A stretch of 42,931 nt of DNA, taken from the NCBI RefSeq assembly GCF_001499735.1, contig NZ_LN848257.1, positions 3,233,599-3,276,529 on the forward strand, in the 5' to 3' direction. Shown in pieces: positions 1,162 through 16,935 of the stretch (position 1 is the stretch's first letter; every line of letters begins with the position of its first letter). Both the position numbers and the translations under genes were made by a program. The notes under the pieces are model-generated. The model was not told the DNA's origin and did no database searches. It worked only from the letters and a program-made list of their open reading frames with translations. Source of the DNA: Thiocapsa sp. KS1 (GTDB lineage: Bacteria; Pseudomonadota; Gammaproteobacteria; Chromatiales; Chromatiaceae).

Positions 1162-1269
1162 GACTTCCGGAGGAAGATCGTCAAGGCGCAGCAATGTCTG
1201 GCAGCAGCCACGCAGGTCGCCGTCGGCGGCTATACTCGAGCTCCGGCAGAAACGACAGGATCGACTCCC

Positions 1270-2121
1270 TTGAACGAGCCCGCCGCCCGGCTGCGCGCAC
1301 TCCTCGATCGTGGCGACATGCTCGTCATGCCCTGCTGTTTCGATGCCCTGTCGGCGCGATTGATCGACCAGGCCGGGTTCCCGTTGACCTTCATGAGCGG
1401 TTTCGCGGTCTCGGCGAGCCGCCTCGCGCTGCCCGACACCGGGCTGATCGCGGTGACCGAAATGCTCGACCAGGGACGCGCCATCTGCGATGCGGTACGG
1501 ATCCCGGTCATCGGCGACGGCGACACGGGCTACGGCAATCCGGCCAACGTCAGGCGTACCGTCGATCAGTATGCCCGTGCCGGGTTCGCCGGCATCATGA
1601 TCGAGGATCAGGTGATGCCGAAACGGTGCGGCCACACCGGGGTGAAGGAGGTCGTGGAGCGCGACGAGGCGATCCGCCGGGTGCGCGCCGCCATGGATGC
1701 ACGCGACGCCGGGGCAGGCACCCTGATTGTCGCCCGCACCGACGCACGCAGCGCCCTCGGCTTGGACGAAGCGCTCTGGCGGATGCAGGCATTCGCGGAC
1801 CTGGGCGCCGACATCCTCTTTCTCGAAGCACCGCGCGACGAATTCGAGATGCACCGCTTCTGCACCGAGGTCCCCGGCATCAAGATGGCGAATATGCTCG
1901 AAGAGGGCATCACGCCGATCCTGCCGCCCGCAATGCTCGCGCAGATCGGCTACGGCATCGCCGCCTACCCGCTGACCCTGTTGAGCGCCGCCGTCTTCGC
2001 GATGCGCGAGGCCCTCGCCGACCTGGCCGCCGGACGCTCACCGCAGCGCAGAGTCGACTTCCGCACGCTCCGCGAGCTGGTCGGATTCGATGCCTACGAT
2101 GACCTGCTCCAACGCTACTGA
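1270..2121 (+). CDS. Isocitrate lyase/PEP mutase superfamily protein
   Basis: This 283-residue protein belongs to the PEP mutase/isocitrate lyase (TIM-barrel) superfamily, which makes or breaks C-C or P-C bonds next to a carboxylate using Mg2+. Visible family elements are the N-terminal CFDALSARLIDQAGF, the metal/substrate-binding stretch GDGDTGYGN, IEDQ, the catalytic-loop motif KRCGH (the Cys of isocitrate-lyase and methylisocitrate-lyase-like members), and ARTDAR. The length suits methylisocitrate lyase, oxaloacetate decarboxylase or carboxyphosphonoenolpyruvate mutase. Sequence alone does not separate these. The start is a TTG, with ACAGGA about 9 nt upstream, because the conserved N-terminus begins before the first ATG at 1318. 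No adjoining pathway genes identify the substrate. Confidence 0.88.
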   Translation: MNEPAARLRALLDRGDMLVMPCCFDALSARLIDQAGFPLTFMSGFAVSASRLALPDTGLIAVTEMLDQGRAICDAVRIPVIGDGDTGYGNPANVRRTVDQYARAGFAGIMIEDQVMPKRCGHTGVKEVVERDEAIRRVRAAMDARDAGAGTLIVARTDARSALGLDEALWRMQAFADLGADILFLEAPRDEFEMHRFCTEVPGIKMANMLEEGITPILPPAMLAQIGYGIAAYPLTLLSAAVFAMREALADLAAGRSPQRRVDFRTLRELVGFDAYDDLLQRY

Positions 2122-2461
2122 GGCCCCCCGAGAGGGGCTAGGAGCGCGATCCGAAAATGCAGCACCGCCTCGAAATCGGCCATCCGGCTCGGCGACCAAT
2201 GCGACGGCGTATCCGCGGCTCCTGCGACCCGCGCCCGTCGGTTCGGCGGCCCGGAGCGTCTCGGCCGCGCGATCGCGACGTGCCGAGCGAGCCTCAAGAA
2301 CGTCTTGCACGAACGTCTTACAGCTTGCGACCATGTGAAGGCGCGACTATCCTTTTCCCGCGCTAAACCGGGGGTTTTCGACAGACCCGACGCCGATCGA
2401 TCTCGTTCGAGGGCCGCTCGAAACACGCATCACGATGCTTGAAGCGATTTGAAGACAACCG

Positions 2462-2478
2462 CCCGCTCGCGGGTTTTT
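2462..2478 (+). terminator. Weak GC hairpin followed by five T
   Basis: CCCG and CGGG arms around a CTCG loop are followed by TTTTT. The stem is only 4-5 bp, so termination is uncertain. It could instead act as an attenuating structure ahead of the membrane-protein gene starting at 2512. Nothing else recognisable was seen in the gap 2122-2511. Confidence 0.3.
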
Positions 2479-2511
2479 CGAAAACCAACCCCGGTTAAGG
2501 ATGGAATCGAC

Positions 2512-3147
2512 ATGTTGAAAGTGTTCAAGAATTGGATCGAGAGCTCGCTCTCGAAGACGCGTACGTTGCCGCGCGAAAGCCTGGCTGGATCCTTCAAGCG
2601 TCTGGGCTGGACCGGACTCTGGATCCAGGTCGTGGTCGGGGTGATCCCCCTCATCCTCATGAGCTACACCTTCGTGTTCGCGCAATCCCCGACGGGGCCG
2701 CGCGCCGGATTGCCGATCGTCGAGTATCTGACGATGGGGAGTCTCCTGATCCTTGTCTTCACCACCTTTTGGTTTTATCGCTACACGCGGATCGCCGACA
2801 GGATCGCAGGCCCCGGAGACTCCCCGACGGAGACCGAGCTTGCCGGAACCATCTGGATCGGACTCGCCGCGAGCAGCGCGGCGATCCTCTTCACCATCGT
2901 GGTGATGTTCATCGAGGTGGCGCATCTGCTCTTCTACTTTCTGTCCGCACCGCAAGGCGGTGTCCCGGTCATTCAGACGACGGGGATGGGTCCGACAAGC
3001 TGGGTGTCGGCCGTCGACATGCTCAGTCTGATGTCTATGGTGCTGACGGTTCTGGCCGAGCTGGTGGTCTTGGTATTCAGTCTTTGGCTGCTGTTCCGGG
3101 TGACCGAAGGCTCGCCCGAATACGGCGGGGGCAAGGTCGTCGTCTAG
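2512..3147 (+). CDS. Multi-pass membrane protein, DUF3611-like
   Basis: This 211-residue integral membrane protein has about four hydrophobic segments: near residues 33-57 (WTGLWIQVVVGVIPLILMSY), 70-90, 110-140 and 170-197. The opening RLGWTGLWIQVVVGVIP resembles the conserved start of DUF3611 proteins of cyanobacteria, plastids and some proteobacteria, whose function is unknown. The family call is from memory of that motif and is moderate at best. I chose the ATG at 2512 because AAGGA lies about 11 nt upstream. An upstream TTG at 2449 would place a charged, non-conserved extension before the first helix. It stands alone, with a non-coding stretch on each side. Confidence 0.75.
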   Translation: MLKVFKNWIESSLSKTRTLPRESLAGSFKRLGWTGLWIQVVVGVIPLILMSYTFVFAQSPTGPRAGLPIVEYLTMGSLLILVFTTFWFYRYTRIADRIAGPGDSPTETELAGTIWIGLAASSAAILFTIVVMFIEVAHLLFYFLSAPQGGVPVIQTTGMGPTSWVSAVDMLSLMSMVLTVLAELVVLVFSLWLLFRVTEGSPEYGGGKVVV

Positions 3148-3506
3148 ACCCGCCCTCCCCGGTCGGTCATCCCGCCGCGTCTTGTGCGCTGCACCGACGC
3201 GGCGGTCGTCCCCGTAGCGCTTTTCGGACGCCGATGACCAACCTGACCGACGCCGAGAACTCGCGTGCGGCGAATCCCTGCGCCGCACGACGCCCACCCT
3301 CGCCGTTCAACCGACTCGGCGGCATCGCCCCTTTCGCATTGCGAATCCGCATGCTTTTTCGGGCGCTCTCCTGGTCGCGCTTCCGGTCCTGCTCTGGTAG
3401 GGAATAACCCAGTCCGGTCTGCGCGTCGCGGCGGACAGCGATCGGGCCGGAGCGGCAACCGCCCGATGCTCGGCGTGCCGCTGCGCAGTGACGGGAGACA
3501 CCGAGG
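3148..3506. other. Non-coding gap between convergent genes
   Basis: The gap separates the 3' ends of the DUF3611-like gene and the DUF1269 gene. I see no convincing reading frame, RNA gene, strong hairpin or member of the window's repeat families here. Confidence 0.5.
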
Positions 3507-4001
3507 CTAGCCGGTCCCTTCGAGGAAGGCCTTCAGACTCTCTTCCCGATCCTTTTCGAGCGAAGTCTGCAACACCTTGCCCTTGCCCTTGAACTCCCCG
3601 AGCCCTTCGAGGACCTTGTCGCCCGTGACCTTGCGCACCAGGATGAAGACGGCCGAGCACCCGGGTTGGAAGCTCTGAGCCAAGCCCTTCATGAAGTCGT
3701 CGTCGATGCCGATGTCGGAGAACTTGCCCGACAAGGCACCGGCCCCGGCACCGACGGCCGCGCCGAGGAGCGGATTGAGAAAGACCAGACCGATCAACAT
3801 GCCCCAGAAGCCGCCGCCGACCGCGCCGACCGCGGACAGGTTGACGGCCTGATGGAGCTTCACCTTGCCTTTATCGTCTTTGGTGACGACGACGACGTCT
3901 TCCATGTCGATGAGATAGGCCTTCTGCATCTTGGCCAGCTCGGCCCGCAGCTCGAACGCAAGCTGCTCGTCCGGGAAGGAAACGACGATCAGATCACTCA
4001 T
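3507..4001 (-). CDS. DUF1269 family protein with glycine-zipper core
   Basis: This 164-residue protein begins MSDLIVVSFPDEQLAFEL, a compact alpha/beta domain typical of DUF1269. A hydrophobic, glycine-rich stretch follows at about residues 57-92 (GAVGGGFWGMLIGLVFLNP, then GAAVGAGAGALSG). The C-terminal half (FSDIGIDDDFMKGLAQSF, and SAVFILVRKV) is also family-like. The function of DUF1269 proteins is not established; many are stress-associated membrane-interacting proteins. The downstream minus-strand neighbour encodes a glycine-zipper lipoprotein, so the two may serve the same envelope stress response. The spacing between them (about 85 bp) allows cotranscription. Confidence 0.85.
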   Translation of the reverse strand: MSDLIVVSFPDEQLAFELRAELAKMQKAYLIDMEDVVVVTKDDKGKVKLHQAVNLSAVGAVGGGFWGMLIGLVFLNPLLGAAVGAGAGALSGKFSDIGIDDDFMKGLAQSFQPGCSAVFILVRKVTGDKVLEGLGEFKGKGKVLQTSLEKDREESLKAFLEGTG

Positions 4002-4086
4002 GTGGGTCTCCGCGAATCATGGGAAAGGGATTGGCTCTACGGGTCTCGGATCGGTGCCCGCTCGTTGCGAGCCTGCCTCCGAGGGC

Positions 4087-4311
4087 TTAAAGGTTGCCTT
4101 TCTTATGCTCGTCGACGAGGTAGCCGCCCAAGGCACCCACGCCGGCACCGATCAGGGCACCGGCACCCGCTTCGGCACTGAGCGACCCGATGACCGCACC
4201 GGTGGCGAGGCCCATCGCCGCGCCGGTTCCGACACGGGCACCGGTGGTATTGCCGCAGCCGGCGACCGACACGACGGCGACGAGGATCAGGGGTATGGTG
4301 ATCGTCTTCAA
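4087..4311 (-). CDS. Small glycine-zipper lipoprotein
   Basis: This 74-residue protein carries a lipoprotein signal (MKTITIPLILVAVVSVAGC) with a VAGC lipobox cysteine at residue 19. A glycine-zipper repeat follows (GTGAAMGLATGAVIGSLSAE, then GAGALIGAGVGALGGYLVDE), as in OsmB/SlyB/YMGG-type proteins. Mature protein is expected to be lipid-anchored, probably in the outer membrane. The start is a TTG at 4309-4311, chosen because AGGAGA stands 6 nt before it and the signal peptide begins there. The same frame stays open far upstream, but that extension is arginine-rich and not signal-like. Confidence 0.82.
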   Translation of the reverse strand: MKTITIPLILVAVVSVAGCGNTTGARVGTGAAMGLATGAVIGSLSAEAGAGALIGAGVGALGGYLVDEHKKGNL

Positions 4312-4792
4312 GATGCGTCTCCTAATCTGACAATGAGGCGGCCCGGAACGGGGTTTCAGTCGCCGAACGTCGCCCGGTCTCCCCGAGCCGACGCGTGCGG
4401 GACCCGCACAGGGGGTCCGTTTCGACGCCGTCGCGGCCGGACGTCTCTGCGGCGCGGCGCTCGGCCAGGGCACGCTTGTCCGCCACAGGGCATCGGCGTA
4501 TCTTCTCGCGATCGGATGTTCGGTCTGCCGTATTCGTTTCCGACCCTTTCGAGCCGACATCCGGCCCCGCGATGATAGCTCAGAATCTCCGCCGAACCGC
4601 GCGCGGATGAGAGCCGACGTTGTTCCGGAGCCGTTTCTCCGGGAGGCTAGAGGCGACACCGGTCTCGACCGGGTCGACTCGATATATCAAAAATCCAAAC
4701 CGCGTCGGCGACGGCGCTTCGGGATCGCTTGCGACGCCACGCCAACGCAAGGGCTGCGCAGGACATGCCGGACGCGGTACGGGAGGGCAACG
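4312..4792. other. Non-coding gap between divergent genes
   Basis: This 481-base region lies between the glycine-zipper lipoprotein gene (leftward) and the saccharopine-dehydrogenase-like gene (rightward), so it should hold both promoters. I see no clear sigma-70 box, operator, hairpin or small gene in it. Reading frames that cross it are arginine-rich and look like chance frames of GC-rich DNA. Confidence 0.5.
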
Positions 4793-6151
4793 ATGCCGGC
4801 CGACACGATGACGGGATCCGCGATTGCGGGGACCCGGGAACCCACCAAGATCGCCTTCTTCGGACTCGGCGCCGTCGGATCGGCCTTGCTGATTTGTCTC
4901 TCCGAGCTCGCCGAGCGCGACGATGTCCCGGTGCGCTTCGTGGTCTATGTCATCAGCCCGGACGCGGCGCGGGATGCGCTGTTTCACGCCGAGCGTCTCT
5001 TCGATCGGATCGACTTCATCGGGGTCCCCGATTTCGCCCCGGTGTTTGCCCTCGAATCGGGACACGCCTCCGAGCTGACGGGCGCCGCGATGCTCGTCAA
5101 CGCCGCGCTGCCCGAGTTCAACGGGCCGATGATCGAGCTGGCGTTGCGCATCGGCGCGCACACCGTCGACCTCGCCTCCGATATGTACGACGCGACCACC
5201 GACCGAACCCTGACCTTCTCGCAATACGGGTTCGACCACGCCTTGCGCGAGCGCGGGGTCGCCGCGCTCATCAACATGGGCATCTCGCCCGGCGTCACCA
5301 ACTTCCTGATCGGCCGTCGGATTCACGATCTGCTCGCCGGCGACCGCAAGGAGCTGGAGATCGAGAGTATCGATCTGTACCTGCTCGAAGACATCGACTC
5401 GGACTCGGTCATCTTCTCCTGGTCGCCGATCGTCGCGCTCGAGGAGCTGGCGCAGCACCCGCGCATTCTCGCCAAGGGCCGCATGCAAGTGCTGGAACCC
5501 TTCAGCGCCGGGCGGGACTATGCCTTTCCGCACGAGCCGCGGCCGATTCGCCAATACCCGCTGTATCAAGAGGAGCTGCTCTCGCTGCATCGATCCTTCC
5601 CGGAGGTGGAGTCGATCGGGATCTACACCGGCGGGTCCGAGGTCGAGCTGGTCAAGGCGCTGTTCCAGCTCAACCTGCTCTCCAAACGCACCCTGCCGCA
5701 TCAGCCCGAGCTGACCGTGGAGGCGATGGTGCGCGCCATCCTGCCGGGCATGAACAAGCCGCGACGGATCGAGGAGTATCTGCGCAACGGGACGATCCGC
5801 CGCGCGCATTTCTCGGCCGCCGCCGAGATCCGCGTCTCCGAGGTCGTGCGCAACGACCGTCAGACCGCCATCGAGACGGTCGGCCTGAGCTACCTGCGCT
5901 ACCACGATCTGCTCAATACACCCTACGCCGGGGCGACCTATATCTCCTATCCGACCGCGGTCGGTGCCGCCATCCTGGCCTGGCATGCGCTCGAGTACGC
6001 ACGCGAGGCACCGGGCGCACTCGTCGGCGTCGTCGGGGGCGAGGATCTCGCCCGACTGCTGCCGCGAATGCGTGCCGACGCAGTTCGACGCGACCTGGTC
6101 GCCTGGGATATCGATCTCTTCGAGAGCGTCCGCGACGCCTCGGTCGCCTGA
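4793..6151 (+). CDS. Saccharopine dehydrogenase-like NAD(P)-dependent protein
   Basis: This 452-residue protein opens with an N-terminal Rossmann fold, KIAFFGLGAVGSALL (GxGxxG). A catalytic-domain region follows with NMGISPGVTNFLIGR, resembling the MGxxPGxxN segment of saccharopine dehydrogenase and carboxynorspermidine dehydrogenase proteins. The family performs NAD(P)-linked oxidation or reductive condensation of amino acids; the substrate here is unknown. I chose the ATG at 4793 because GGGAGGG lies 6 nt upstream. The upstream extension in the same frame is arginine-rich and lacks any family feature. No lysine or polyamine genes are nearby. The following hydrolase gene starts 46 bp downstream on the same strand and may be cotranscribed. 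Confidence 0.82.
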   Translation: MPADTMTGSAIAGTREPTKIAFFGLGAVGSALLICLSELAERDDVPVRFVVYVISPDAARDALFHAERLFDRIDFIGVPDFAPVFALESGHASELTGAAMLVNAALPEFNGPMIELALRIGAHTVDLASDMYDATTDRTLTFSQYGFDHALRERGVAALINMGISPGVTNFLIGRRIHDLLAGDRKELEIESIDLYLLEDIDSDSVIFSWSPIVALEELAQHPRILAKGRMQVLEPFSAGRDYAFPHEPRPIRQYPLYQEELLSLHRSFPEVESIGIYTGGSEVELVKALFQLNLLSKRTLPHQPELTVEAMVRAILPGMNKPRRIEEYLRNGTIRRAHFSAAAEIRVSEVVRNDRQTAIETVGLSYLRYHDLLNTPYAGATYISYPTAVGAAILAWHALEYAREAPGALVGVVGGEDLARLLPRMRADAVRRDLVAWDIDLFESVRDASVA

Positions 6152-6197
6152 TTTTTCACAGCAACACCCACAATCGAGCCTGTTTAGGAGCTTTCTC

Positions 6198-7709
6198 ATG
6201 CTTGCGAGGACCGCCCGAATCCTGAAGTTGGTCGCACAGCTTGTCGCCGTGAGCGCATTGACCTTCCTCGCCGTACGGGCCTTCGACGCGCATCAGAGTG
6301 CACCGCTTGCCTTGTGGCACACCTTCGTCCCGAGCGAGATGGAGGCCGAGGAGCTCGACAGCGCCGACTGGGCGACGTATCTGGCGCGGGAGCAGATGCT
6401 CTTCGACGAGGTGCGCTCCGAGGTCACCGACCAGCTCGAGCCGGATGAGCGCATCCTCTCCAACCGCTACTTCGAGGGCAGTCCGCTCTATCCGGGGCGC
6501 TTCGCCCGGGACTGGAACCGCTCCTATGTCCTCGAGCCCGACGGCGAGCCCCGGGGTGCGGTCGTCCTGCTGCACGGCCTTACAGACTCCCCCTACAGCC
6601 TGCGTCACATCGGCCGACATTACCGCGAGTCGGGTTATGTCGTGATCGGGATCCGCCTGCCCGGACACGGGACCGTCCCGGCCGGCCTGACGACGGTGCA
6701 CTGGGAGGATTGGTCGGCCGCAACGCGCCTAGCCGTGCGCGAGGCGGTGCGCCGGATCGGGCCCGCGGCGCCGCTACAGCTGGTGGGCTTCTCCAACGGC
6801 GGGGCACTCGCCATGAAATACGTGCTCGACGCCGTCGAGGATCCCTCCATGAGGCAGGCCGATCGGGTGATCCTGATCACGCCCATGATCGGGATCACCG
6901 AGATGGCTCGGTTCGCGGGGTTCGCGGGTTTACCCGCGATCTTTCCGGCGTTCGCGAGCGCGGCCTGGCTCGGTGTCATCCCCGAGTTCAATCCATTTAA
7001 ATACAACTCGTTTCCGGTCAACGGGGCACGCCAGTCGTCGCTCCTCACACGCGCATTGCAACCGCGCATCGCCCGCTACGCACGCCAGGGGCGTCTCGAC
7101 GCGCTGCCCCCGATCATCACCTTCCAGTCCGTGGTCGATTTCACCGTCAGCACGCGCGCCATCGTCACGAGCCTCTACGCTCAGCTCCCGGACAACGGCA
7201 GCGAGCTGGTGCTCTTCGATATCAACCGCAACACCAAGTTCGGCCCCCTGATGCGACCCGGCACCGAGACCGCGCTCGACCGCCTGCTGCCGCCGACGCC
7301 GCGCAGCTTCAAGACGACCGTCATCACCAACGCCGGCCCGGAGAGCAGCGAGGTCGTCGAGCGGGTCACCGACGCAGGCGAGACATCCGAGCGGGTCAGA
7401 GCGCTGGGGCTGACCTATCCGCGCGACGTCTTCTCGCTCTCGCATGTCGCCCTGCCGTTTCCGATCGACGACTCGCTCTACGGTCTGGAGCCGAACGCGA
7501 ACGAGGACTTCGGTGCACACCTCGGGGCATTGGCCATCCGCGGCGAGCGCGGGGTCTTGGTCATGAGTCTGGACTCGCTGGTGCGCCTGTCCTGGAATCC
7601 CTTCTTCCCCTATCTGATCGAGCGCATCGAAGACGGGATCGCCGATGCGCCGCTCGGCGAAACCGGCGCGGCGGACGCAGCACAGGGCGTCGATAAGCCA
7701 TCACCCTGA
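6198..7709 (+). CDS. Membrane-anchored alpha/beta hydrolase
   Basis: This 503-residue protein has an N-terminal membrane anchor or signal at about residues 10-28 (LKLVAQLVAVSALTFLAVRA), then a large alpha/beta-hydrolase domain. The oxyanion segment is VVLLHGLTDSPYSLR, followed by IRLPGHGTVPAG. The nucleophile elbow is GFSNGG, with a serine. The likely acid is the Asp of VVDFTVS and the likely histidine that of SLSHVALPF. The substrate is unknown; esterase or lipase-like activity at the periplasmic face is a reasonable guess. TAGGAG stands 7 nt before the ATG. The length exceeds a minimal hydrolase, with an insert of about 150 residues before the histidine. Confidence 0.85.
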   Translation: MLARTARILKLVAQLVAVSALTFLAVRAFDAHQSAPLALWHTFVPSEMEAEELDSADWATYLAREQMLFDEVRSEVTDQLEPDERILSNRYFEGSPLYPGRFARDWNRSYVLEPDGEPRGAVVLLHGLTDSPYSLRHIGRHYRESGYVVIGIRLPGHGTVPAGLTTVHWEDWSAATRLAVREAVRRIGPAAPLQLVGFSNGGALAMKYVLDAVEDPSMRQADRVILITPMIGITEMARFAGFAGLPAIFPAFASAAWLGVIPEFNPFKYNSFPVNGARQSSLLTRALQPRIARYARQGRLDALPPIITFQSVVDFTVSTRAIVTSLYAQLPDNGSELVLFDINRNTKFGPLMRPGTETALDRLLPPTPRSFKTTVITNAGPESSEVVERVTDAGETSERVRALGLTYPRDVFSLSHVALPFPIDDSLYGLEPNANEDFGAHLGALAIRGERGVLVMSLDSLVRLSWNPFFPYLIERIEDGIADAPLGETGAADAAQGVDKPSP

Positions 7710-7836
7710 AAGGAGCAGCTGCCTCCCCGGGCGCCGAGCCGCCTGTTCTTCCGCCACAGCGGGCCATTGCGTTCAGGGATTGACCGCCCTATTTCGGATC
7801 TTGTCCAAATCACGAACAACCGGATGAGGTTTCGAG

Positions 7837-8379
7837 ATGCGAATGTTCGTCCTGCTCCCGATGCTCGGGGCACTCCTGCTGCCCGCCGCGGCTTCCGCCG
7901 CCTGCGCCCCGGCCCTGGACTTCGAGATGCGTCGGCTCGCCGGCGACGAGACAGTGCGGCTTTGCGACGCCTATCAGGGCAAGGTGATCCTTGCGGTGAA
8001 CACCGCGAGCAAATGCGGATTTACGGGCCAGTACGAGGGCCTCGAAGCCTTGTATCGTGAATACGGCGAGCGCGGACTGGTGGTGCTCGGTTTCCCGTCC
8101 AACGACTTCGCCAACCAGGAGCCCGGCTCCGAGAAGGAGATCCGGGACTTCTGCCGTCTGACCTATTCGGTGGAGTTTCCGATGTTCGAGAAGGTTCAGG
8201 TCAAGAAAGGCGCTGCTGCACCTTTCTTCGAGTACCTGGCCGCAGAGACCGGCGTCTACCCCGAATGGAACTTCTACAAGTACCTGATCGACCGAGACGG
8301 CAAGGTCGTCGAGGTCTTCCCCAGCCGCACCGGCCCGGAGAGCGAGAAGATGATCCAGGTGATCGAACGTCTGCTCTGA
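7837..8379 (+). CDS. Exported glutathione peroxidase family protein
   Basis: This 180-residue protein has a cleavable signal peptide (MRMFVLLPMLGALLLPAAAS, AxA-type end) and a glutathione-peroxidase fold. The peroxidatic cysteine is in NTASKCGFTGQY. The second family motif FPSNDFANQEPGS supplies the Gln-side residue, and PEWNFYKYLIDRDGKV holds the Trp-Asn pair. The tetrad Cys-Gln-Trp-Asn is therefore present. The family reduces hydrogen and lipid peroxides with glutathione or, more often in bacteria, thioredoxin-like donors. The signal peptide places it in the periplasm, where a non-glutathione donor is likely. It converges on the lipoprotein gene at 8405, with a shared hairpin between them. 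Confidence 0.92.
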   Translation: MRMFVLLPMLGALLLPAAASAACAPALDFEMRRLAGDETVRLCDAYQGKVILAVNTASKCGFTGQYEGLEALYREYGERGLVVLGFPSNDFANQEPGSEKEIRDFCRLTYSVEFPMFEKVQVKKGAAAPFFEYLAAETGVYPEWNFYKYLIDRDGKVVEVFPSRTGPESEKMIQVIERLL

Positions 8380-8387
8380 CCGCCATC

Positions 8388-8406
8388 GAAGGCCGGGGCG
8401 GCCTTC
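8388..8406. terminator. Hairpin between convergent genes
   Basis: A perfect 7-bp inverted repeat, GAAGGCC and GGCCTTC around GGGGC, lies between the peroxidase gene and the opposing lipoprotein gene. It overlaps the lipoprotein gene's stop codon. It could terminate both transcripts. The following T run is short, so efficiency is unclear. Confidence 0.55.
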
Positions 8407-8902
8407 ATTTGCCGTCGCCGGACCCGAGCCGGTCGCGCGCCATGGCTGCGGCGTCCTCGATCCCCTGCTGTGCACGATCGATGATCGCCTTGCCTTGGCT
8501 GATCATCGCCTGCTTGACCGCTCGGGCGAGGGCGGGTCTGGAGAGCGTCTCGCCGTCGATCGTCATGGTTTCCGGGGAGGTCGAATAGGCCGACAAAGGG
8601 TCGCTCAGCGTCAGCGCGGTGTCGTCGACCGCGTTGTAGCGATAGTGACAGCTCGCCTGCCGAGGTCGGCTCTCACCGTCGGACTCGAACCCGAGCACGA
8701 CCGTGAGTCCCGAATGACCGCGGGCTCGGGTCTCCACGCCGGTCCAGCGCAGCGAGCTCGGCGAGGCAACCTGCGTTGCCGCCAAACTCTTGCAGAAGCT
8801 CACGCGCACATCCTCGCGCGAACCCGAGCAGCTCGCGACCAAAAAAGATGTCGTCGCGAGAGCGATGCCGGCTCGCAGCAAAACCGTCGTGCGTTTGGTC
8901 AT
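8405..8902 (-). CDS. Hypothetical lipoprotein
   Basis: This 165-residue protein carries a lipoprotein signal, MTKRTTVLLRAGIALATTSF, ending in a VASC lipobox. No known family is recognised. The mature part has two further cysteines (SFCKSL and ASCHYRY) that could form a disulfide. The C-terminal helix is rich in Ala, Gln and charged residues. The SFCKSL...VASPSSLRW layout looks like a small periplasmic domain. Export to the periplasm and lipid anchoring are inferred from the signal. It is convergent with the glutathione peroxidase gene. Confidence 0.7.
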   Translation of the reverse strand: MTKRTTVLLRAGIALATTSFLVASCSGSREDVRVSFCKSLAATQVASPSSLRWTGVETRARGHSGLTVVLGFESDGESRPRQASCHYRYNAVDDTALTLSDPLSAYSTSPETMTIDGETLSRPALARAVKQAMISQGKAIIDRAQQGIEDAAAMARDRLGSGDGK

Positions 8903-10794: not shown

Positions 10795-12420
10795 TCAGGG
10801 CCCGGAGACGTCGGCATTCCTGCCGTAAACCCTGACGCAGTTACGCCCTGCGGATTTAGCAGCATACAGTGCCTGGTCGGCGCGATCGATCAAGGCATCG
10901 AGGTTTTCGACACCGCGCTCGAGCGTCGCCACGCCGATGCTCGCCGTGATCGGGATCGGCCCCTCCGTGGTTTCGATATCGCGCTCGCGCAGTGCAAGAC
11001 AGAGTCGCTCGGCGAGTCGTTCGGCCTCTTCGGCGCTGGTCTCGGGACACAGCGCCACCAGCTCCTCGCCCCCGTACCGGGCCAGGATGTCCGACACGCG
11101 AACCGCGCGCAGCCGCTCGGCAATGGCCTTGAGGACCTGATCGCCGACACCGTGTCCGTAGGTGTCGTTGACCTGCTTGAAGTGATCGATGTCGAGCATG
11201 ATCACCGCGATCGGGTTCGAATAGCGTTTGGCGCGGGCAAACTCGACCTCTGCAAGCTCGGAAAAGCGACGGCGGTTCAGTAGCTCGGTGAAGGGATCGG
11301 TATCGGCCAGGGCACGGACCTGTTGGAACAAGCGGGCATTGATATCGCGTTCGCGGCGCAGGCTCTGCTCCGTCTCCTGGAGCTTCACGAATGTGCGTGC
11401 GTTGGAGATCGCCAAGCCGCAGAGGTTGGAGATCGCCAAGCCGAGATTCAGGTATTGATCGCGATAGGCCGGGAACGGGATCTCGCGCACCAGCATCAGC
11501 CCCAGGACGGTGTCCTGGTAGTCGATCCGGAGGAAAAAACCGTTCCCGGACGGCATGATCAGATAGCCCTCGTGCAGGGCATCGAGCGCCTGTTGGAGAT
11601 CCAGACGATCCCGCGGTCGCTCCTCCGCGGCGAAGATCTCCTTGACCCGTCCCTCCTCCACTTGAGCGTAGACCAAGTTGATGCACCCGAAGAGCATCGC
11701 GAAGAGCTCTTGAATCGCCGCGATCGTGGCATCCTCGTCGGTGATGTGCGACAAGCGAACGAGCAGGTCGAAGGCCATGGCGTAATCGGCGACCTTGCGG
11801 TTGGCCTGTGTCAGGATCTCTCTGGTTTTTGCCTCCGCGGCGAGGTTGCGCCATTTGGCGATGGCACCGGAGAGAAAGAGCCTCAGATAGTCCAATCCGA
11901 CATAGCGGCTGCGGCACGGCAGACCCAGATACTGCGCCATCGCCTCGAGCTCCTCGAAGGCGTGCGCGTCGCTGCCTGTATCCAGGAGCAGGAGCTCGCG
12001 CGAGCATTCACGGAAGAACTCACCCGCCGTCTCCCGATCGAAGCCCATCCCGTGCAGGTGCTCGCGCCACCGCTTGAGCCAGCCGGCGGTCACGAGATAG
12101 GCACCGGCCTGTATCTCGGGCTCCAGGACATCGCTTCCCGCCAAGAGGTGAATGCAGTGGTCGAGCTTCACCAGGTGCACGCGGGGATCGGGCGGCGGCG
12201 CACGCGTCGCGGCATCGCACCCGAGGAGCACCAAAGCGCCGTCGGAACCCTCGGGCGGCGGGGTCTCGCGTGCATCCCCAAGGCTGCATCGTCCGGGACT
12301 CAAGGTGCAGACGGCAGGGTACGCCTGGACACGCACGCTCTCCTCGCCGAGGGTCGCCAGCGCGGTCTCGACATCCTGTCGAAAATGGCTACAGACCCTC
12401 AGACAAAGCGTTTCCTCCAC
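10795..12420 (-). CDS. Diguanylate cyclase with N-terminal DUF1638-like domain
   Basis: This 541-residue protein has an N-terminal half (residues 1-190) that resembles DUF1638, a Cys-containing domain found beside corrinoid and UroD-type methyltransferase genes; see VHLVKLDHCIHLLAGSDVLE, the following YLVTAGWLKRWRE, and LLLLDTGSDAHAFEELE. A central GAF-like/helical linker follows (about 200-370). The C-terminal GGDEF domain has its catalytic loop GGEEL near residue 449 and an upstream RVSD inhibitory-site motif at standard spacing. It should therefore make c-di-GMP and be product-inhibited. The GTG start at 12420 lies two bases after the UroD-like gene's stop, with GGAG upstream. The frame stays open farther upstream only as a shadow of that gene. 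The DUF1638 assignment is from memory. Confidence 0.85.
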   Translation of the reverse strand: MEETLCLRVCSHFRQDVETALATLGEESVRVQAYPAVCTLSPGRCSLGDARETPPPEGSDGALVLLGCDAATRAPPPDPRVHLVKLDHCIHLLAGSDVLEPEIQAGAYLVTAGWLKRWREHLHGMGFDRETAGEFFRECSRELLLLDTGSDAHAFEELEAMAQYLGLPCRSRYVGLDYLRLFLSGAIAKWRNLAAEAKTREILTQANRKVADYAMAFDLLVRLSHITDEDATIAAIQELFAMLFGCINLVYAQVEEGRVKEIFAAEERPRDRLDLQQALDALHEGYLIMPSGNGFFLRIDYQDTVLGLMLVREIPFPAYRDQYLNLGLAISNLCGLAISNARTFVKLQETEQSLRRERDINARLFQQVRALADTDPFTELLNRRRFSELAEVEFARAKRYSNPIAVIMLDIDHFKQVNDTYGHGVGDQVLKAIAERLRAVRVSDILARYGGEELVALCPETSAEEAERLAERLCLALRERDIETTEGPIPITASIGVATLERGVENLDALIDRADQALYAAKSAGRNCVRVYGRNADVSGP

Positions 12421-12422
12421 GG

Positions 12423-13511
12423 TCAGCTCCGGGAGCCCTTCGGTGGCGGGGCGCTTGCGCGCTCGAGAGAAGGATCGAGCGGATAGGTTCCCCAGCGATG
12501 GACCGCCTCGGAGATGGCCAGCAACGTCGTTTCCGAAACCTGGTAGGGGATCTCGCCGTGGTTGTCGGACAGGATGAACCCGCCGCCGTGACCGGCCGCG
12601 GCGATCGCCGCCTTGACCTGCGTCTCGGCCTGCTGCGGTGTCCAACGACGCATCTCGACGCCGTTGAGGTTGCCGAGCAACGCCATCTTGCCGGCGGTAC
12701 GTTGCTTGAGAGCAGCGAGCTCGTCGAGCATGCTGACCCCGATGACCGCCGCACCGGTGCGGGGAAGATCGTCCAGGATCGGCGTGCAGCGACCGGATGC
12801 GAAATGCATCGCCACCGGCCCCTTGATCCCGGCCAGGGTGCGCATCGCGACCTGAAGTCCGGTCCGGCGAAAATGCTCGGGCGAGACGATGGTCGAGGAG
12901 GAGACCGGGTCGAAATAACAGATGGCGGTGGCGCCCGCGGCCAACTGGGCGTTCGCCCATTCGATACAGAAGGCCTCGTTCAGACGCATCAGGTGCTCGA
13001 AGAGGTCGGGCTGCTCGAACATGAGATTGAGATAGGCCTCGAACCCCATCTGCATGATCGGGACAGAGAAGGGCGACATGACCACGCCGATGATGGGGAC
13101 CTCGTCGCCGCCGGCCGCCTTGAGCCCACGGGTGGCCTCCAGCACCTTGACCAGACAAGCACAATCGCCGACCCGCGGCGGCTCGAGCGTGCGAATCCGC
13201 TCCGGTGTCCGAATGACCGGCTGGCCGGCATTGGGCGGGCCGTCGTCGGTGTAGAGGACATCGCCGCCCCACGCCTCGGTCTCGACCGAGGCGTAGAAGA
13301 AGCTGTAGAGGCAATCGTTACGATACTTGCGGCGCAGACGCAGCTGACCTTCGATGACGTACTCCGGCCGCGAGAAATAGGTCTCGATGGAGAGTCCGAG
13401 CTCTTGCGCGCCGTGCATGGTGAGCAAGAGAAACAGCGGGACCCGATCCGGCTCCCGATGGCCGAGCGTGGTCAGCACGCGTTCGAGCGAGGTCATGGGT
13501 CGAGCGCTCAT
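12423..13511 (-). CDS. UroD/MtaA-family methyltransferase homologue
   Basis: This 362-residue protein belongs to the uroporphyrinogen decarboxylase-like superfamily, which also contains the MtaA/MtbA/CmuA corrinoid:CoM or methyl-donor methyltransferases. Visible features are SLERVLTTLGHREPDRVPLF at the N-terminus, the (beta/alpha)8 repeats, and FILSDNHGEIP near the end. The corrinoid-protein gene upstream overlaps it by four bases (ATGA). That points to methyl transfer from or to a corrinoid rather than haem synthesis. The zinc motif of MtaA-type enzymes (HxC plus a later Cys) is not intact: the matching places read H236-F-A and D316-N-H. The metal site or the chemistry may therefore differ. 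Confidence 0.85.
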   Translation of the reverse strand: MSARPMTSLERVLTTLGHREPDRVPLFLLLTMHGAQELGLSIETYFSRPEYVIEGQLRLRRKYRNDCLYSFFYASVETEAWGGDVLYTDDGPPNAGQPVIRTPERIRTLEPPRVGDCACLVKVLEATRGLKAAGGDEVPIIGVVMSPFSVPIMQMGFEAYLNLMFEQPDLFEHLMRLNEAFCIEWANAQLAAGATAICYFDPVSSSTIVSPEHFRRTGLQVAMRTLAGIKGPVAMHFASGRCTPILDDLPRTGAAVIGVSMLDELAALKQRTAGKMALLGNLNGVEMRRWTPQQAETQVKAAIAAAGHGGGFILSDNHGEIPYQVSETTLLAISEAVHRWGTYPLDPSLERASAPPPKGSRS

Positions 13512-14161
13512 GCGCGATGCCCCTTCGGCAGATTCTCGAGGAGCTTGCGCACCACGGCGACGCCCTCGGCCGCGGTGTCGGCCATCGCGTCGGCGCCGAC
13601 CTCCCGCCACAGCTCGGTGTCGAAACGAAAAGGCGCGCCGCCCACCAGGATAAACGGACGACAACCGGCCCGATCCAGCGACTCTCGAACCCGTTTGATA
13701 TGCAGCGCGGAGGGGAGCATCAAGACCGAGATCAACAACACGACGATGCCGTCTCGAACCACCCGACTGACCAGGGCATCGCCGTCGAGCGTTCCGTAGT
13801 CCTTCAGCTCGTAGCCGCTGGCGCGCAGGACGGAATACACCATGCGTTTTCCGAGCAGGTGATAGTCGTCGAGCACCGCGATCGCCATCGGAGGCTGATC
13901 CACTCGGCGCGGATCCGACGGAGGCAGGATGGCGTCCACCAACTCCTCGCACAGCCGACCGCTCATATAAACCTGCGACAGCGACACCTCGCCGCGCTCC
14001 CACAGGGCCCCGATACGCTCAAGGGACGGCACAACCAAGCGCTCGACGACATCGAGCCGGGCATCGGCAGGGGTCGGGCCGCCGAGTGCACGCTTCGCCG
14101 CGACGCGGTCCATCGCCAGCAGGGCGTCGAGGAAGATCTCGACCTGATCCGAGTGTGTCAT
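13508..14161 (-). CDS. Cobalamin-binding corrinoid protein
   Basis: This 217-residue protein has the two-domain layout of methyltransferase corrinoid proteins. A helical cap domain spans about residues 1-90 (VERLVVPSLERIGALWERGE, the usual cap motif). A B12-binding Rossmann domain follows with D99-Y-H101-L-L-G104 (DxHxxG, His as lower cobalt ligand), S145-V-L147 (SxL) and G174-G175 (the GG motif). All three family signatures are therefore present. It is the first gene of the operon and overlaps the UroD-like gene by ATGA. A role as methyl carrier for that protein, or as a B12-based sensor domain, would fit. B12-binding photoreceptors of the CarH type share this fold. Confidence 0.92.
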   Translation of the reverse strand: MTHSDQVEIFLDALLAMDRVAAKRALGGPTPADARLDVVERLVVPSLERIGALWERGEVSLSQVYMSGRLCEELVDAILPPSDPRRVDQPPMAIAVLDDYHLLGKRMVYSVLRASGYELKDYGTLDGDALVSRVVRDGIVVLLISVLMLPSALHIKRVRESLDRAGCRPFILVGGAPFRFDTELWREVGADAMADTAAEGVAVVRKLLENLPKGHRA

Positions 14162-14626: not shown

Positions 14627-16282
14627 ATGCGAGCCTCGATCGGCGCCGTCGCCGGCTTTCTTTTGATCGCACTCTTCAGCGTAAGCTCCGGTGCTCGGGA
14701 TACCTGGCCGACACCGCCGGCAGCCGCCGTTCCGCCTCCCCAGATCTCCGGTCCGCTGCAGGGCGGAACCGCCGATCACACCAAGTTCGAGCAGCTCAAG
14801 GGGCCGTTCAGCTCCGGGCCGGAGGTCACCGTCGCCTGTCTCGGCTGCCATACCGAGGCCGGCGATCACTTCATGCGCAACATCCACTGGACCTGGTCCT
14901 ACGCCAACGAGGAGACCGGCCAGCAGCTCGGCAAGCGCTATCTGATCAACAATTTCTGCACCAACGCGCGCGGCAACGAGGGGATGTGCGCCCAGTGCCA
15001 TGCCGGCTACGGCTGGAAGGACGAGGGCTTCGACTTCACCGACGAGACCAAGATCGACTGTCTGGTCTGCCACGAGACCACCGGCACCTATTACAAGACC
15101 CCCAACAGCGCCGGGAATGCGGCTTGCTCGGTCATGTTCGAGGGCAAGCCCCCGATCGATCTGGCCGCGGTCGCGCAGAGCGTGACGCTTCCGCAACGCG
15201 CCAACTGCGGGGCCTGTCACTTCAACGGCGGCGGCGGCGACAACGTCAAGCACGGCGATCTCTCCTCGGCCTTAAAGAGCCCGCCGAGGACGCTCGACGT
15301 CCACATGGGTGCCGACGGTCTGAACTTCGCCTGCACGGCCTGCCACATCACCAACCGCCATGTCTGGGCCGGCAGCCGCTACCAGGTCATCTCCAAGGAC
15401 ACCGAGGGCACGGGCAAGCCGGGCCAGCGCACCGACGTGGCGACCTGCGAGTCGTGTCACGGGCTCTCGCCGCATCCGGTGGATTCGCTCGCCGGCTTCA
15501 AGCTCAACGATCACGTGCACAGCATCGCCTGCCAGACCTGCCACATCCCCGAGATCGCACGCGGCGGTGTTGCAACGGTCGTCGACTGGGATTGGCGCAC
15601 CGCCGGCAAGACCAAAGACGGCGCGGGCTATCACGAGGAAGGTTACATCCAGGGCAACGGCAAGCACCGTTACACCTACAAGTCGATCAAGGGCAACTTC
15701 ACCTACGACGAAGATTTCCCGCCGGCCTACGGATGGTTCGATGGCCAGATGCTCTACACCACCATCGACACCAAGTTCGACCCGCAGGCCGAGTCCATCG
15801 AGATCAACGGCTTCGCCGGCTCGCGCGAGGATCCGAAATCCCGGATCTGGCCGTTCAAGCGCATGCACACCTGGCAGCCCTACGACAAAGGCAACGGCAC
15901 CCTGGTCTATACCCACCTGTGGGGCGAGGACGATGCCGCCTACTGGGGCAACTACGACATGGGCGAATCGATCGCCAAGGGCATGGCCGACTTCGGACTG
16001 CCCTATTCAGGCGAGTTCGGTTTCATCCAGACGATCTCCTGGTGGCCCATCACCCATATGGTCGCACCCAAGGAGAACGCACTGGGTTGCGGTGACTGCC
16101 ATGCCCCGACCGGCAGCCGCTTGGCCTCGGTCGAGGGCGTCTACATGCCGGGCCGCGACCATAACCGCTGGCTCGACATCATCGGGACGCTTCTGGTCGC
16201 CGGCACCCTGGGCGGCATCCTCATCCACGGCCTCGTCCGTTTCTTCTCGCCGTCCCATGGCTCCAAGGGGGAGCAGCACTGA
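14627..16282 (+). CDS. otr: Octaheme tetrathionate reductase-family cytochrome c, membrane-anchored
   Basis: This 551-residue protein has a signal peptide and exactly eight CxxCH haem motifs. Seven lie at residues 71, 121, 145, 194, 236, 274 and 302, and the eighth near 495. This count, spacing and length match the octaheme tetrathionate reductase (OTR) family known from Shewanella. That family can reduce tetrathionate and, in vitro, nitrite and hydroxylamine. A C-terminal transmembrane helix (WLDIIGTLLVAGTLGGILIH) anchors it in the inner membrane, whereas the soluble Shewanella enzyme lacks one as far as I recall. The next gene, a cytochrome b, starts at the last base of this stop codon, so the two make a coupled membrane complex. 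The physiological direction, oxidation or reduction, cannot be told. Confidence 0.9.
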   Translation: MRASIGAVAGFLLIALFSVSSGARDTWPTPPAAAVPPPQISGPLQGGTADHTKFEQLKGPFSSGPEVTVACLGCHTEAGDHFMRNIHWTWSYANEETGQQLGKRYLINNFCTNARGNEGMCAQCHAGYGWKDEGFDFTDETKIDCLVCHETTGTYYKTPNSAGNAACSVMFEGKPPIDLAAVAQSVTLPQRANCGACHFNGGGGDNVKHGDLSSALKSPPRTLDVHMGADGLNFACTACHITNRHVWAGSRYQVISKDTEGTGKPGQRTDVATCESCHGLSPHPVDSLAGFKLNDHVHSIACQTCHIPEIARGGVATVVDWDWRTAGKTKDGAGYHEEGYIQGNGKHRYTYKSIKGNFTYDEDFPPAYGWFDGQMLYTTIDTKFDPQAESIEINGFAGSREDPKSRIWPFKRMHTWQPYDKGNGTLVYTHLWGEDDAAYWGNYDMGESIAKGMADFGLPYSGEFGFIQTISWWPITHMVAPKENALGCGDCHAPTGSRLASVEGVYMPGRDHNRWLDIIGTLLVAGTLGGILIHGLVRFFSPSHGSKGEQH

Positions 16283-16935
16283 TGGCCACACGCCGCGTCA
16301 AGATCTTCAGCCTGTTCGAGCGCTTCTGGCACTGGTCCCAGATGCTGCTCATCGTCGCACTCTTGATCACGGGCTTCGGGCTGCACGGTTTCCATGACCT
16401 CTTCACCTTCGAAGAGGCCGTCACCCTGCACACCTCGGCCGCCCTCGCGCTGCTCGTGCTCTGGATCTTCAGTGTCTTCTGGCTCTTTACGACGCGCACC
16501 TGGCGCCACTTCATCCCGTCCGCATCGGGGATGTGGGGGGTTCTGCGCTTCTACAGCTACGGCATCTTCAAGGGCGAGCGCCACCCCTATCGCAAGGCCT
16601 ATTGGCGCAAGCACAACCCCTTGCAGGCACTGGCCTATCTCATGCTCAAGATCGTGCTGTTTCCGGCGATCTGGATCACCGGGCTCGCCTATCTGTTCTA
16701 TTTCGCGTGGCGCAACCTGCCCCATGCCACGCAATGGCTCAACGGCGTCGCGGTGGTGCACACGGCCGCCGCCTTTATGATCCTGGCGTTCGTGCTCATC
16801 CATGTCTACATGCTCACCATCGGGCACTCCTTCCGCGAGCATCTGATGCCCATGATCAACGGCTTCGACGAGGTGGATCTCACGCCGGAAGAAGAGGCCT
16901 ATCTGAGCAAGGATCAGCCGGGAGACATCCGCTGA
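16282..16935 (+). CDS. Cytochrome b (b561/thiosulfate-reductase type) subunit
   Basis: This 217-residue integral membrane protein has four to five helices and histidines placed for b-haem ligation: FERFWHWSQ in helix 1, VTLHTSAALA in helix 2, and VVHTAAAFMILAFVLIHVYM in later helices. This matches prokaryotic cytochrome b561 and thiosulfate/formate dehydrogenase gamma-type subunits. Its start shares one base with the upstream stop (TGATG), so it is translationally coupled to the octaheme cytochrome. It likely passes electrons between the quinone pool and that cytochrome. The C-terminus (PEEEAYLSKDQPGDIR) is soluble. Confidence 0.9.
   Translation: MATRRVKIFSLFERFWHWSQMLLIVALLITGFGLHGFHDLFTFEEAVTLHTSAALALLVLWIFSVFWLFTTRTWRHFIPSASGMWGVLRFYSYGIFKGERHPYRKAYWRKHNPLQALAYLMLKIVLFPAIWITGLAYLFYFAWRNLPHATQWLNGVAVVHTAAAFMILAFVLIHVYMLTIGHSFREHLMPMINGFDEVDLTPEEEAYLSKDQPGDIR

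Follow-up and report, generated by a model that had tools for sequence, protein, structure and literature searches.

What is the task of three neighbouring genes in Thiocapsa sp. KS1 that encode a corrinoid protein, a URO-D/MtaA-like protein and a protein joining a DUF1638 domain to a GGDEF domain: one-carbon metabolism or signalling? The genes were examined within a stretch of 42,931 nucleotides (contig NZ_LN848257.1, positions 3,233,599 to 3,276,529), called the window in the following. With high confidence we regard the trio as a module for signalling. That it works as an enzyme-coupled sensor, with the URO-D/corrinoid pair as input, DUF1638 as reader, GAF domain and helices as relay and a swappable output, is considered probable. 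The features in window coordinates are:

13508..14161, minus strand: gene of the corrinoid (B12-binding) protein, 217 amino acids, stop included; B12-binding_2 cap and B12-binding domain (Pfam, phmmer)
13850..13867, minus strand: DxHxxG motif (D99-H101-G104) of the corrinoid protein, from the translation; invariant in all 80 alignment rows having the column
12423..13511, minus strand: gene of the URO-D/MtaA-like protein, 362 amino acids (Pfam, AlphaFold2 model)
10795..12420, minus strand: gene of the sensor protein, GTG start, 541 amino acids; DUF1638, long helix, GAF, long helix, GGDEF
11881..12249, minus strand: DUF1638 domain (Pfam stretch); the modelled domain covers approximately residues 5-173 (12408-11902)
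11485..11736, minus strand: GAF-fold domain, residues 229-312, numbered from the GTG (AlphaFold2 model, Foldseek)
10840..11307, minus strand: predicted GGDEF diguanylate cyclase domain, Pfam 158 bits, with GGEEL and the RxxD inhibitory site

The original prediction, made from the sequence of the window, described three coupled genes. This was borne out: all are on the minus strand, the TGA of the corrinoid gene and the ATG of the URO-D gene share bases (ATGA), and the stop of the latter is followed after two bases (CC) by the GTG of the sensor gene. The prediction also named the gene order in other Chromatiaceae as a check, and the order was found to be conserved in this family and far beyond it. 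A search with the DUF1638 profile (PF07796) covered 146 Chromatiaceae genomes and matched 17 including the own genome, three with a stand-alone DUF1638 and 14 with DUF1638 fused to long proteins, one of which scored below the curated cut-off. Neighbourhoods were taken from the 16 matching genomes besides the own. At thresholds of E up to 1e-80 for URO-D and up to 1e-10 for the sensor, the URO-D-like protein was detected in 19 and the sensor in 22 of 142 Chromatiaceae genomes. The sensor match of G074 is a stand-alone DUF1638; the fused sensor is thus present in 21 of the 142 genomes and occurs together with the URO-D-like protein in 19. Of the 19 genomes with URO-D, 18 (window included) have the three genes side by side. 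Genome G036 keeps both the sensor gene and the corrinoid/URO-D pair, although some 590 kb separate them.

Furthermore, a collection of species genomes was scanned with the URO-D alignment. From 363 relatives the best 80 were analysed. The corrinoid gene was located directly upstream of the URO-D gene in 80/80 loci and a sensor gene directly downstream in 76/80; DUF1638 is part of 63 of these sensors, and the other 13 match in the GAF part only. The matched part of the sensor starts -28 to 458 nucleotides (median 6) from the URO-D stop. Three of the four loci without sensor run out of contig. A chance neighbourhood was rejected by comparison with other gene clusters, the commonest of which (histidine kinases by sequence reading) was found in 36/80 loci and the next in 8/80. 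When the three proteins are compared by their pairwise distances, these correlate (r 0.63-0.80) in the 54 rows with a long sensor to which the test was limited, and in 49 rows without Thiocapsa (r 0.52-0.71); 0/999 permutations reached such values. This is as would be expected of a unit inherited together. The loci span Proteobacteria, Desulfobacterota, Chloroflexota, Nitrospirota and Bacteroidota, among others, and the rows of the URO-D tree are labelled as nine bacterial phyla and two Methanomicrobiales metagenome-assembled genomes (MAGs). Single phylum placements may be binning errors, because many of the records are MAGs. Two rows were omitted from one of the alignments, L024 with a broken URO-D gene and L028 with a run of N. 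The two Methanomicrobiales contigs (L044, L100) carry the trio with a kinase-type output and are grouped on the URO-D tree (99*); either transfer to archaea or a binning error may account for them.

The domain structure of the third protein was analysed by profile search and modelling. With 52.4 bits against a Pfam cut-off of 27 (54.2 bits in the search of the whole genome), the N-terminal half was identified as DUF1638, as predicted, and not as a generic sensor. The predicted intact GGEEL and RxxD sites of the GGDEF domain were likewise recovered by Pfam and motif listing, RVSD being the putative RxxD inhibitory site. Thus, the fusion of both domains stands, but a GAF fold between them had been overlooked. 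In the AlphaFold2 model of residues 1-365 (51 aligned sequences, mean predicted local distance difference test score (pLDDT) 90) an alpha/beta DUF1638 domain is followed by a helix (177-223), the GAF domain and a second helix (317-364) running towards the GGDEF domain. Foldseek matched the middle part to the GAF domains 3p01, 4g3k and those of PDE5/PDE6, although Pfam detected no GAF domain in this protein. GAF domains dominate the 50 matches listed for the model. A sequence search of the PDB gave no match for the N-terminal part; all 57 hits fall within the GGDEF end.

For ten other fused sensors of Chromatiaceae, DUF1638 scored above the Pfam cut-off in seven; lower values were obtained for L031 (26.7 bits), L032 (22.9 bits) and L033 (19.9 bits). 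The outputs behind DUF1638 in these proteins are GGDEF, PAS-GGDEF, histidine kinase, histidine kinase-REC-Hpt and PAS-histidine kinase-REC(-Hpt). Among the 76 sensor loci, 41 outputs of histidine-kinase type, 12 GGDEF domains, 12 GAF parts alone, eight genes cut by the contig end and three without detected output were counted with hidden Markov models built from four to seven Chromatiaceae segments each, which may overlook weak or different outputs. The three loci reaching neither output nor contig end are L078, L102 and L104. GGEE(F/L) is kept in 13/13 GGDEF members, window included, and RxxD in 12/13 (not in L038). On a quick URO-D tree (81 rows, 15 of them without output label, SH-aLRT support only) the GGDEF label needs six changes compared to a shuffled mean of 12.1, which shows clustering of the label as well; at least five gains or losses of GGDEF are forced by branches supported at 95 or above. 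The proposed tie of corrinoid chemistry to signalling is well supported by this gene context, but c-di-GMP is one output among several, with 41 kinases versus 12 GGDEF domains. A constant input combined with a repeatedly exchanged output should fit a sensory module and not a metabolic operon with a stray fusion. As a separate observation, the genes with the GAF part only after URO-D in 12 loci, mostly of Desulfobacterota (L042, L059, L062, L064, L065, L069, L072, L076, L077, L082, L088, L097), encode approximately 235-280 amino acids with neither DUF1638 nor output. Pfam was applied to three of these loci (L042, L064, L072), and each has the gene of a multi-domain histidine kinase upstream.

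The exchange of outputs also bears on the possibility of an ordinary one-carbon methyltransferase operon, in which DUF1638 would reactivate the corrinoid and the GGDEF domain would be a fused bystander. Each part of the trio has metabolic relatives, and corrinoid, URO-D and DUF1638 genes with a RamA-like gene do exist in two loci. In L018 (genome G074) the RamA-like gene, labelled by Pfam, is followed by corrinoid, URO-D and DUF1638 genes and the contig end. L102 contains corrinoid and URO-D genes, a separate DUF1638 gene and a PAS hybrid kinase gene, with a RamA-like frame upstream by sequence reading. Both loci represent a second arrangement with DUF1638 as a separate gene. However, no match of RACo/RamA (PF14574) and no second DUF1638 was found in the own genome of the window. 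RamA was detected in 3/3 Chromatiaceae with stand-alone DUF1638 versus 2/14 with the fused form. No further methyltransferase was recognisable in the 14 largest neighbour clusters listed. Because a RamA-type activase and another DUF1638 are missing from the own genome, an ordinary methyltransferase pathway appears disfavoured. With the swapped outputs, the methylotrophy operon was set aside as very unlikely. One other URO-D protein (477.7 bits) is encoded in the own genome, presumably HemE. In the alignment of stand-alone DUF1638 proteins, row L003 is a wrong frame of 28 residues and uninformative. The Hyphomicrobiales MAG contig of L102 carries two tandem sets (positions 1165-8636); the second consists of corrinoid and URO-D genes and a DUF1638 part without output.

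For the corrinoid protein, Pfam identified B12-binding_2 (37.6 bits) and B12-binding (49.4 bits), and phmmer found the corrinoid proteins 3ezx, 1y80 and 7xcn. The claim that the first gene holds all B12 motifs was confirmed by translation and alignment: the DxHxxG residues as well as S145 and L147 (SxL) are present in 80/80 rows with those columns, G174 and G175 (GG) in 81/81. H101 is taken to be the lower cobalt ligand. The protein thus has the cap and the B12 domain with the three motifs of carriers of the MtaC/MtbC type, but its best score for an MtaC/MtbC subfamily is 54.1 bits (TIGR02370) compared to a cut-off of 215.3. Strict retention of the B12-binding residues would also suit a corrinoid-supply sensor, in which the sensor protein distinguishes the apo from the holo corrinoid protein. 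This reading gives no role to the strictly conserved URO-D partner. In addition, an upstream riboswitch was set aside, since 0/4227 Rfam families, cobalamin riboswitches included, match the window at gathering score. We hold sensing of corrinoid supply to be highly improbable.

The same protein raises the question of a B12-based light sensor similar to CarH or the photocobilin-cyclases. A known photoreceptor with a B12 domain, AbDPcob, controls a diguanylate cyclase (PMC10979010), and our protein aligns with residues 14-204 of 8j2y, a "GGDEF domain-containing protein". Thiocapsa is phototrophic, and the tryptophan which the light signature requires in the cap occurs in every row (W54, 79/79 rows), as does Q63 (79/79). 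However, the signature published for CarH-type B12 photoreceptors comprises GxxW, EH, GxxH and GxxxP (PMC11796333). At the place of EH the trio proteins have Val, Ile or Leu (Thr once) followed by Tyr (Y65, 78/79). Two other B12 proteins of the own genome (L125, L126) do carry Wx9EH in the cap, and most hosts of the trio are not phototrophs, as judged by their names. In PMC10979010, uroporphyrinogen has 0 occurrences and no URO-D partner is named. The light sensor was set aside because the EH signature is absent, and we consider it improbable. A third Wx9EH match of the own genome belongs to the MetH-like frame L124 and is not situated in the cap. Independently, the region L029:3106-4323 encodes another B12-binding protein with the light-type GxxW...EH cap motif, in the position immediately behind a kinase-type sensor. 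L126, found elsewhere in the own genome, resembles this protein, as does the shorter L125.

The second protein was described in the prediction as UroD/MtaA-type. It belongs to the URO-D superfamily by Pfam score (194.5 bits) and by fold: the best PDB match of its AlphaFold2 model (pLDDT 91) is the methyltransferase 4ay7 of M. mazei (E 3.9e-19, TMq 0.78), so the description holds, and HemE decarboxylases match nearly as well. The MtaA/CmuA family score was not reached (TIGR01463, 99.3 bits versus a cut-off of 235.4). In MtaA, zinc is bound by His-x-Cys and a second Cys. Of this site the His is retained (H236, 80/81 rows), whereas a profile alignment with the 4ay7 fragment places A238 (81/81) at the Cys of the HxC motif. 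The second Cys falls on H318 in a pairwise alignment and lies outside the stretch of the profile alignment. A zinc-thiol methyltransferase of the MtaA kind was set aside, HxC being absent. D316 (80/81), H318 (81/81) and E320 (81/81) are also conserved, with counts inflated by their position within a peptide used for picking the loci (75/81 rows match). The URO-D-like protein is the best conserved of the trio, with 60-91% identity to the window copy (33 relatives) versus 24-93% for the sensor (50). Beside these data, an in-frame TAA was noticed in the URO-D gene of T. roseopersicina DSM 217 (L034/L024), where the corrinoid and sensor frames are open; it may be a sequencing error or a recent loss.

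Four cysteines of DUF1638 (C10, C38, C68, C89) are near-invariant. Among the 61 rows having all four columns, 50 are complete and 11 lack exactly one, which can be any of them. These residues lead to the strongest rival explanation, a redox or oxygen sensor, in which the redox state would be reported jointly by a Co(II)/Co(I) corrinoid and by an iron-sulphur or zinc site that the four cysteines form in DUF1638, and URO-D would only shield or tune the corrinoid. Many hosts are named as sulphur or sulphate metabolisers. Mutant fitness data connect a stand-alone DUF1638 protein and a RamA-like protein with the reactivation of B12 (PMC5764234). On the other hand, the strong conservation of URO-D would be needless for a passive shield. 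The redox-sensing form is rated as unlikely.

The mechanism which we favour instead, the enzyme-coupled sensor, builds on the gene order and its conservation, the domain make-up, the predicted folds, the cofactor residues and the output swapping demonstrated above. The URO-D-like protein would bind a small molecule, which most likely donates or accepts a methyl group, and would thereby change the corrinoid state of its partner, either methylation or the oxidation of cobalt. DUF1638 of the sensor may dock on the corrinoid protein and read this state via a putative metal or redox site formed by the four cysteines. The signal would then reach the output by way of helix 177-223, the GAF domain and helix 317-364, the output being presumably a diguanylate cyclase here and a histidine kinase elsewhere. 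Control of cyclase output by the methylation or redox state of the corrinoid, as put forward in the original prediction, thus stays an inference. A wider proposal remains tentative and is rather doubtful in its full form. It assumes a horizontally spread class of enzyme-coupled sensors in bacteria and some archaea, in which a corrinoid methyltransferase pair no longer feeding metabolism reports a methylated compound, for example a methyl-sulphur compound, via B12 methylation, read by an iron-sulphur DUF1638 domain with swappable cyclase or kinase outputs.

Several findings weigh against the enzyme-coupled sensor. With HxA(SG) in place of the zinc ligands HxC, it is doubtful whether methyl groups are transferred as in MtaA. 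DUF1638 cannot be the only reader, since the 13 sensor genes with the GAF part only lack it. L041 has corrinoid and URO-D genes, but truly no sensor within 4.5 kb downstream. Conversely, a sensor is present in G026 and G101, whereas URO-D was found neither above the threshold nor in the neighbouring stretch examined. RamA does occur in two of the 14 fused-sensor Chromatiaceae and in two of seven fused-sensor genomes of other families (the seven are from eight non-own genomes with full-length matches, G189 being left out); in both of the latter, another DUF1638 gene, a stand-alone one, lies at most a few kb away from it. Among the 41 kinase calls, 20 are by the ATPase domain alone and 21 include a HisKA match. 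Finally, picking the 80 loci by two conserved URO-D peptides means that they do not sample the relatives at random, and it partly accounts for the near-invariance of the URO-D motif DNHGEI.

Divergent from the trio, at positions 14627-16935 of the window, a protein with many CxxCH motifs, by sequence reading a multihaem cytochrome, and a membrane cytochrome-like protein are encoded. The CxxCH-rich protein adjoins the trio in 5/80 loci, all of Thiocapsa. The source assembly comprises 10.4 Mb in 43 contigs with a contamination value of only 1.13, and five genomes of the same genus have 4.7-5.7 Mb.

The recurrence of the trio with interchangeable signalling ends suggests an undescribed route for sensing through vitamin B12 chemistry. 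If this is true, many phyla feed non-light cobalamin chemistry into c-di-GMP and two-component pathways, and DUF1638 gains a role as reader of the corrinoid state. One input module could then be assayed via the cyclase in Thiocapsa and via kinases elsewhere. Caution would also be needed before genes of such corrinoid/URO-D pairs are assigned to methylotrophy. As a kind, B12-based sensing that ends in a cyclase or kinase is already known. The composition of the trio, with a separate corrinoid carrier and a URO-D partner and lacking the light signature, was not found described in searches of one open-licence library, subscription papers lying largely outside the search. The prediction that no system of this exact composition has been described is supported to this extent, which is weaker than proof of absence.

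Among the known systems, MtaA, CmuA and MtsA are methyltransferases working with MtaC-type corrinoid proteins. The trio resembles them in its URO-D fold, nearest to the methylcobalamin:coenzyme M methyltransferase 4ay7, and in a corrinoid protein of MtaC/MtbC type. It differs by scores below the NCBIfam cut-offs, by the lost zinc HxC, by an own genome without RamA and by the coupling to a signalling protein. Stand-alone DUF1638 proteins with a RamA-like activase share the domain family and the position beside a corrinoid protein, but are separate proteins without output domain (PMC5764234, PMC12478193). Phaeobacter inhibens needs such a protein along with a RamA-like one and a methionine synthase made of three pieces; the authors suggest no specific function for it (PMC5764234). 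In the second report, DUF1638 rises with RamA on N-osmolytes, is connected with glycine betaine use and is predicted to aid cobalamin recharging (PMC12478193). The mec cassette for dichloromethane also clusters a histidine kinase, a corrinoid protein and URO-D-family proteins. According to PMC9768040, its kinase MecA has a PocR domain, and the cluster is catabolic with several methyltransferases, including a putative MTII. Photocobilins, one of them fused to a diguanylate cyclase (AbDPcob; PMC10979010), and CarH are similar in that a B12-binding domain controls an output, in one case a diguanylate cyclase, and the cap tryptophan is present in the trio protein as well. The EH signature is absent from the latter. 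Moreover, B12, bilin and cyclase domains of AbDPcob are united in one chain, whereas the trio has separate B12 and output chains and adds URO-D, DUF1638 and GAF.

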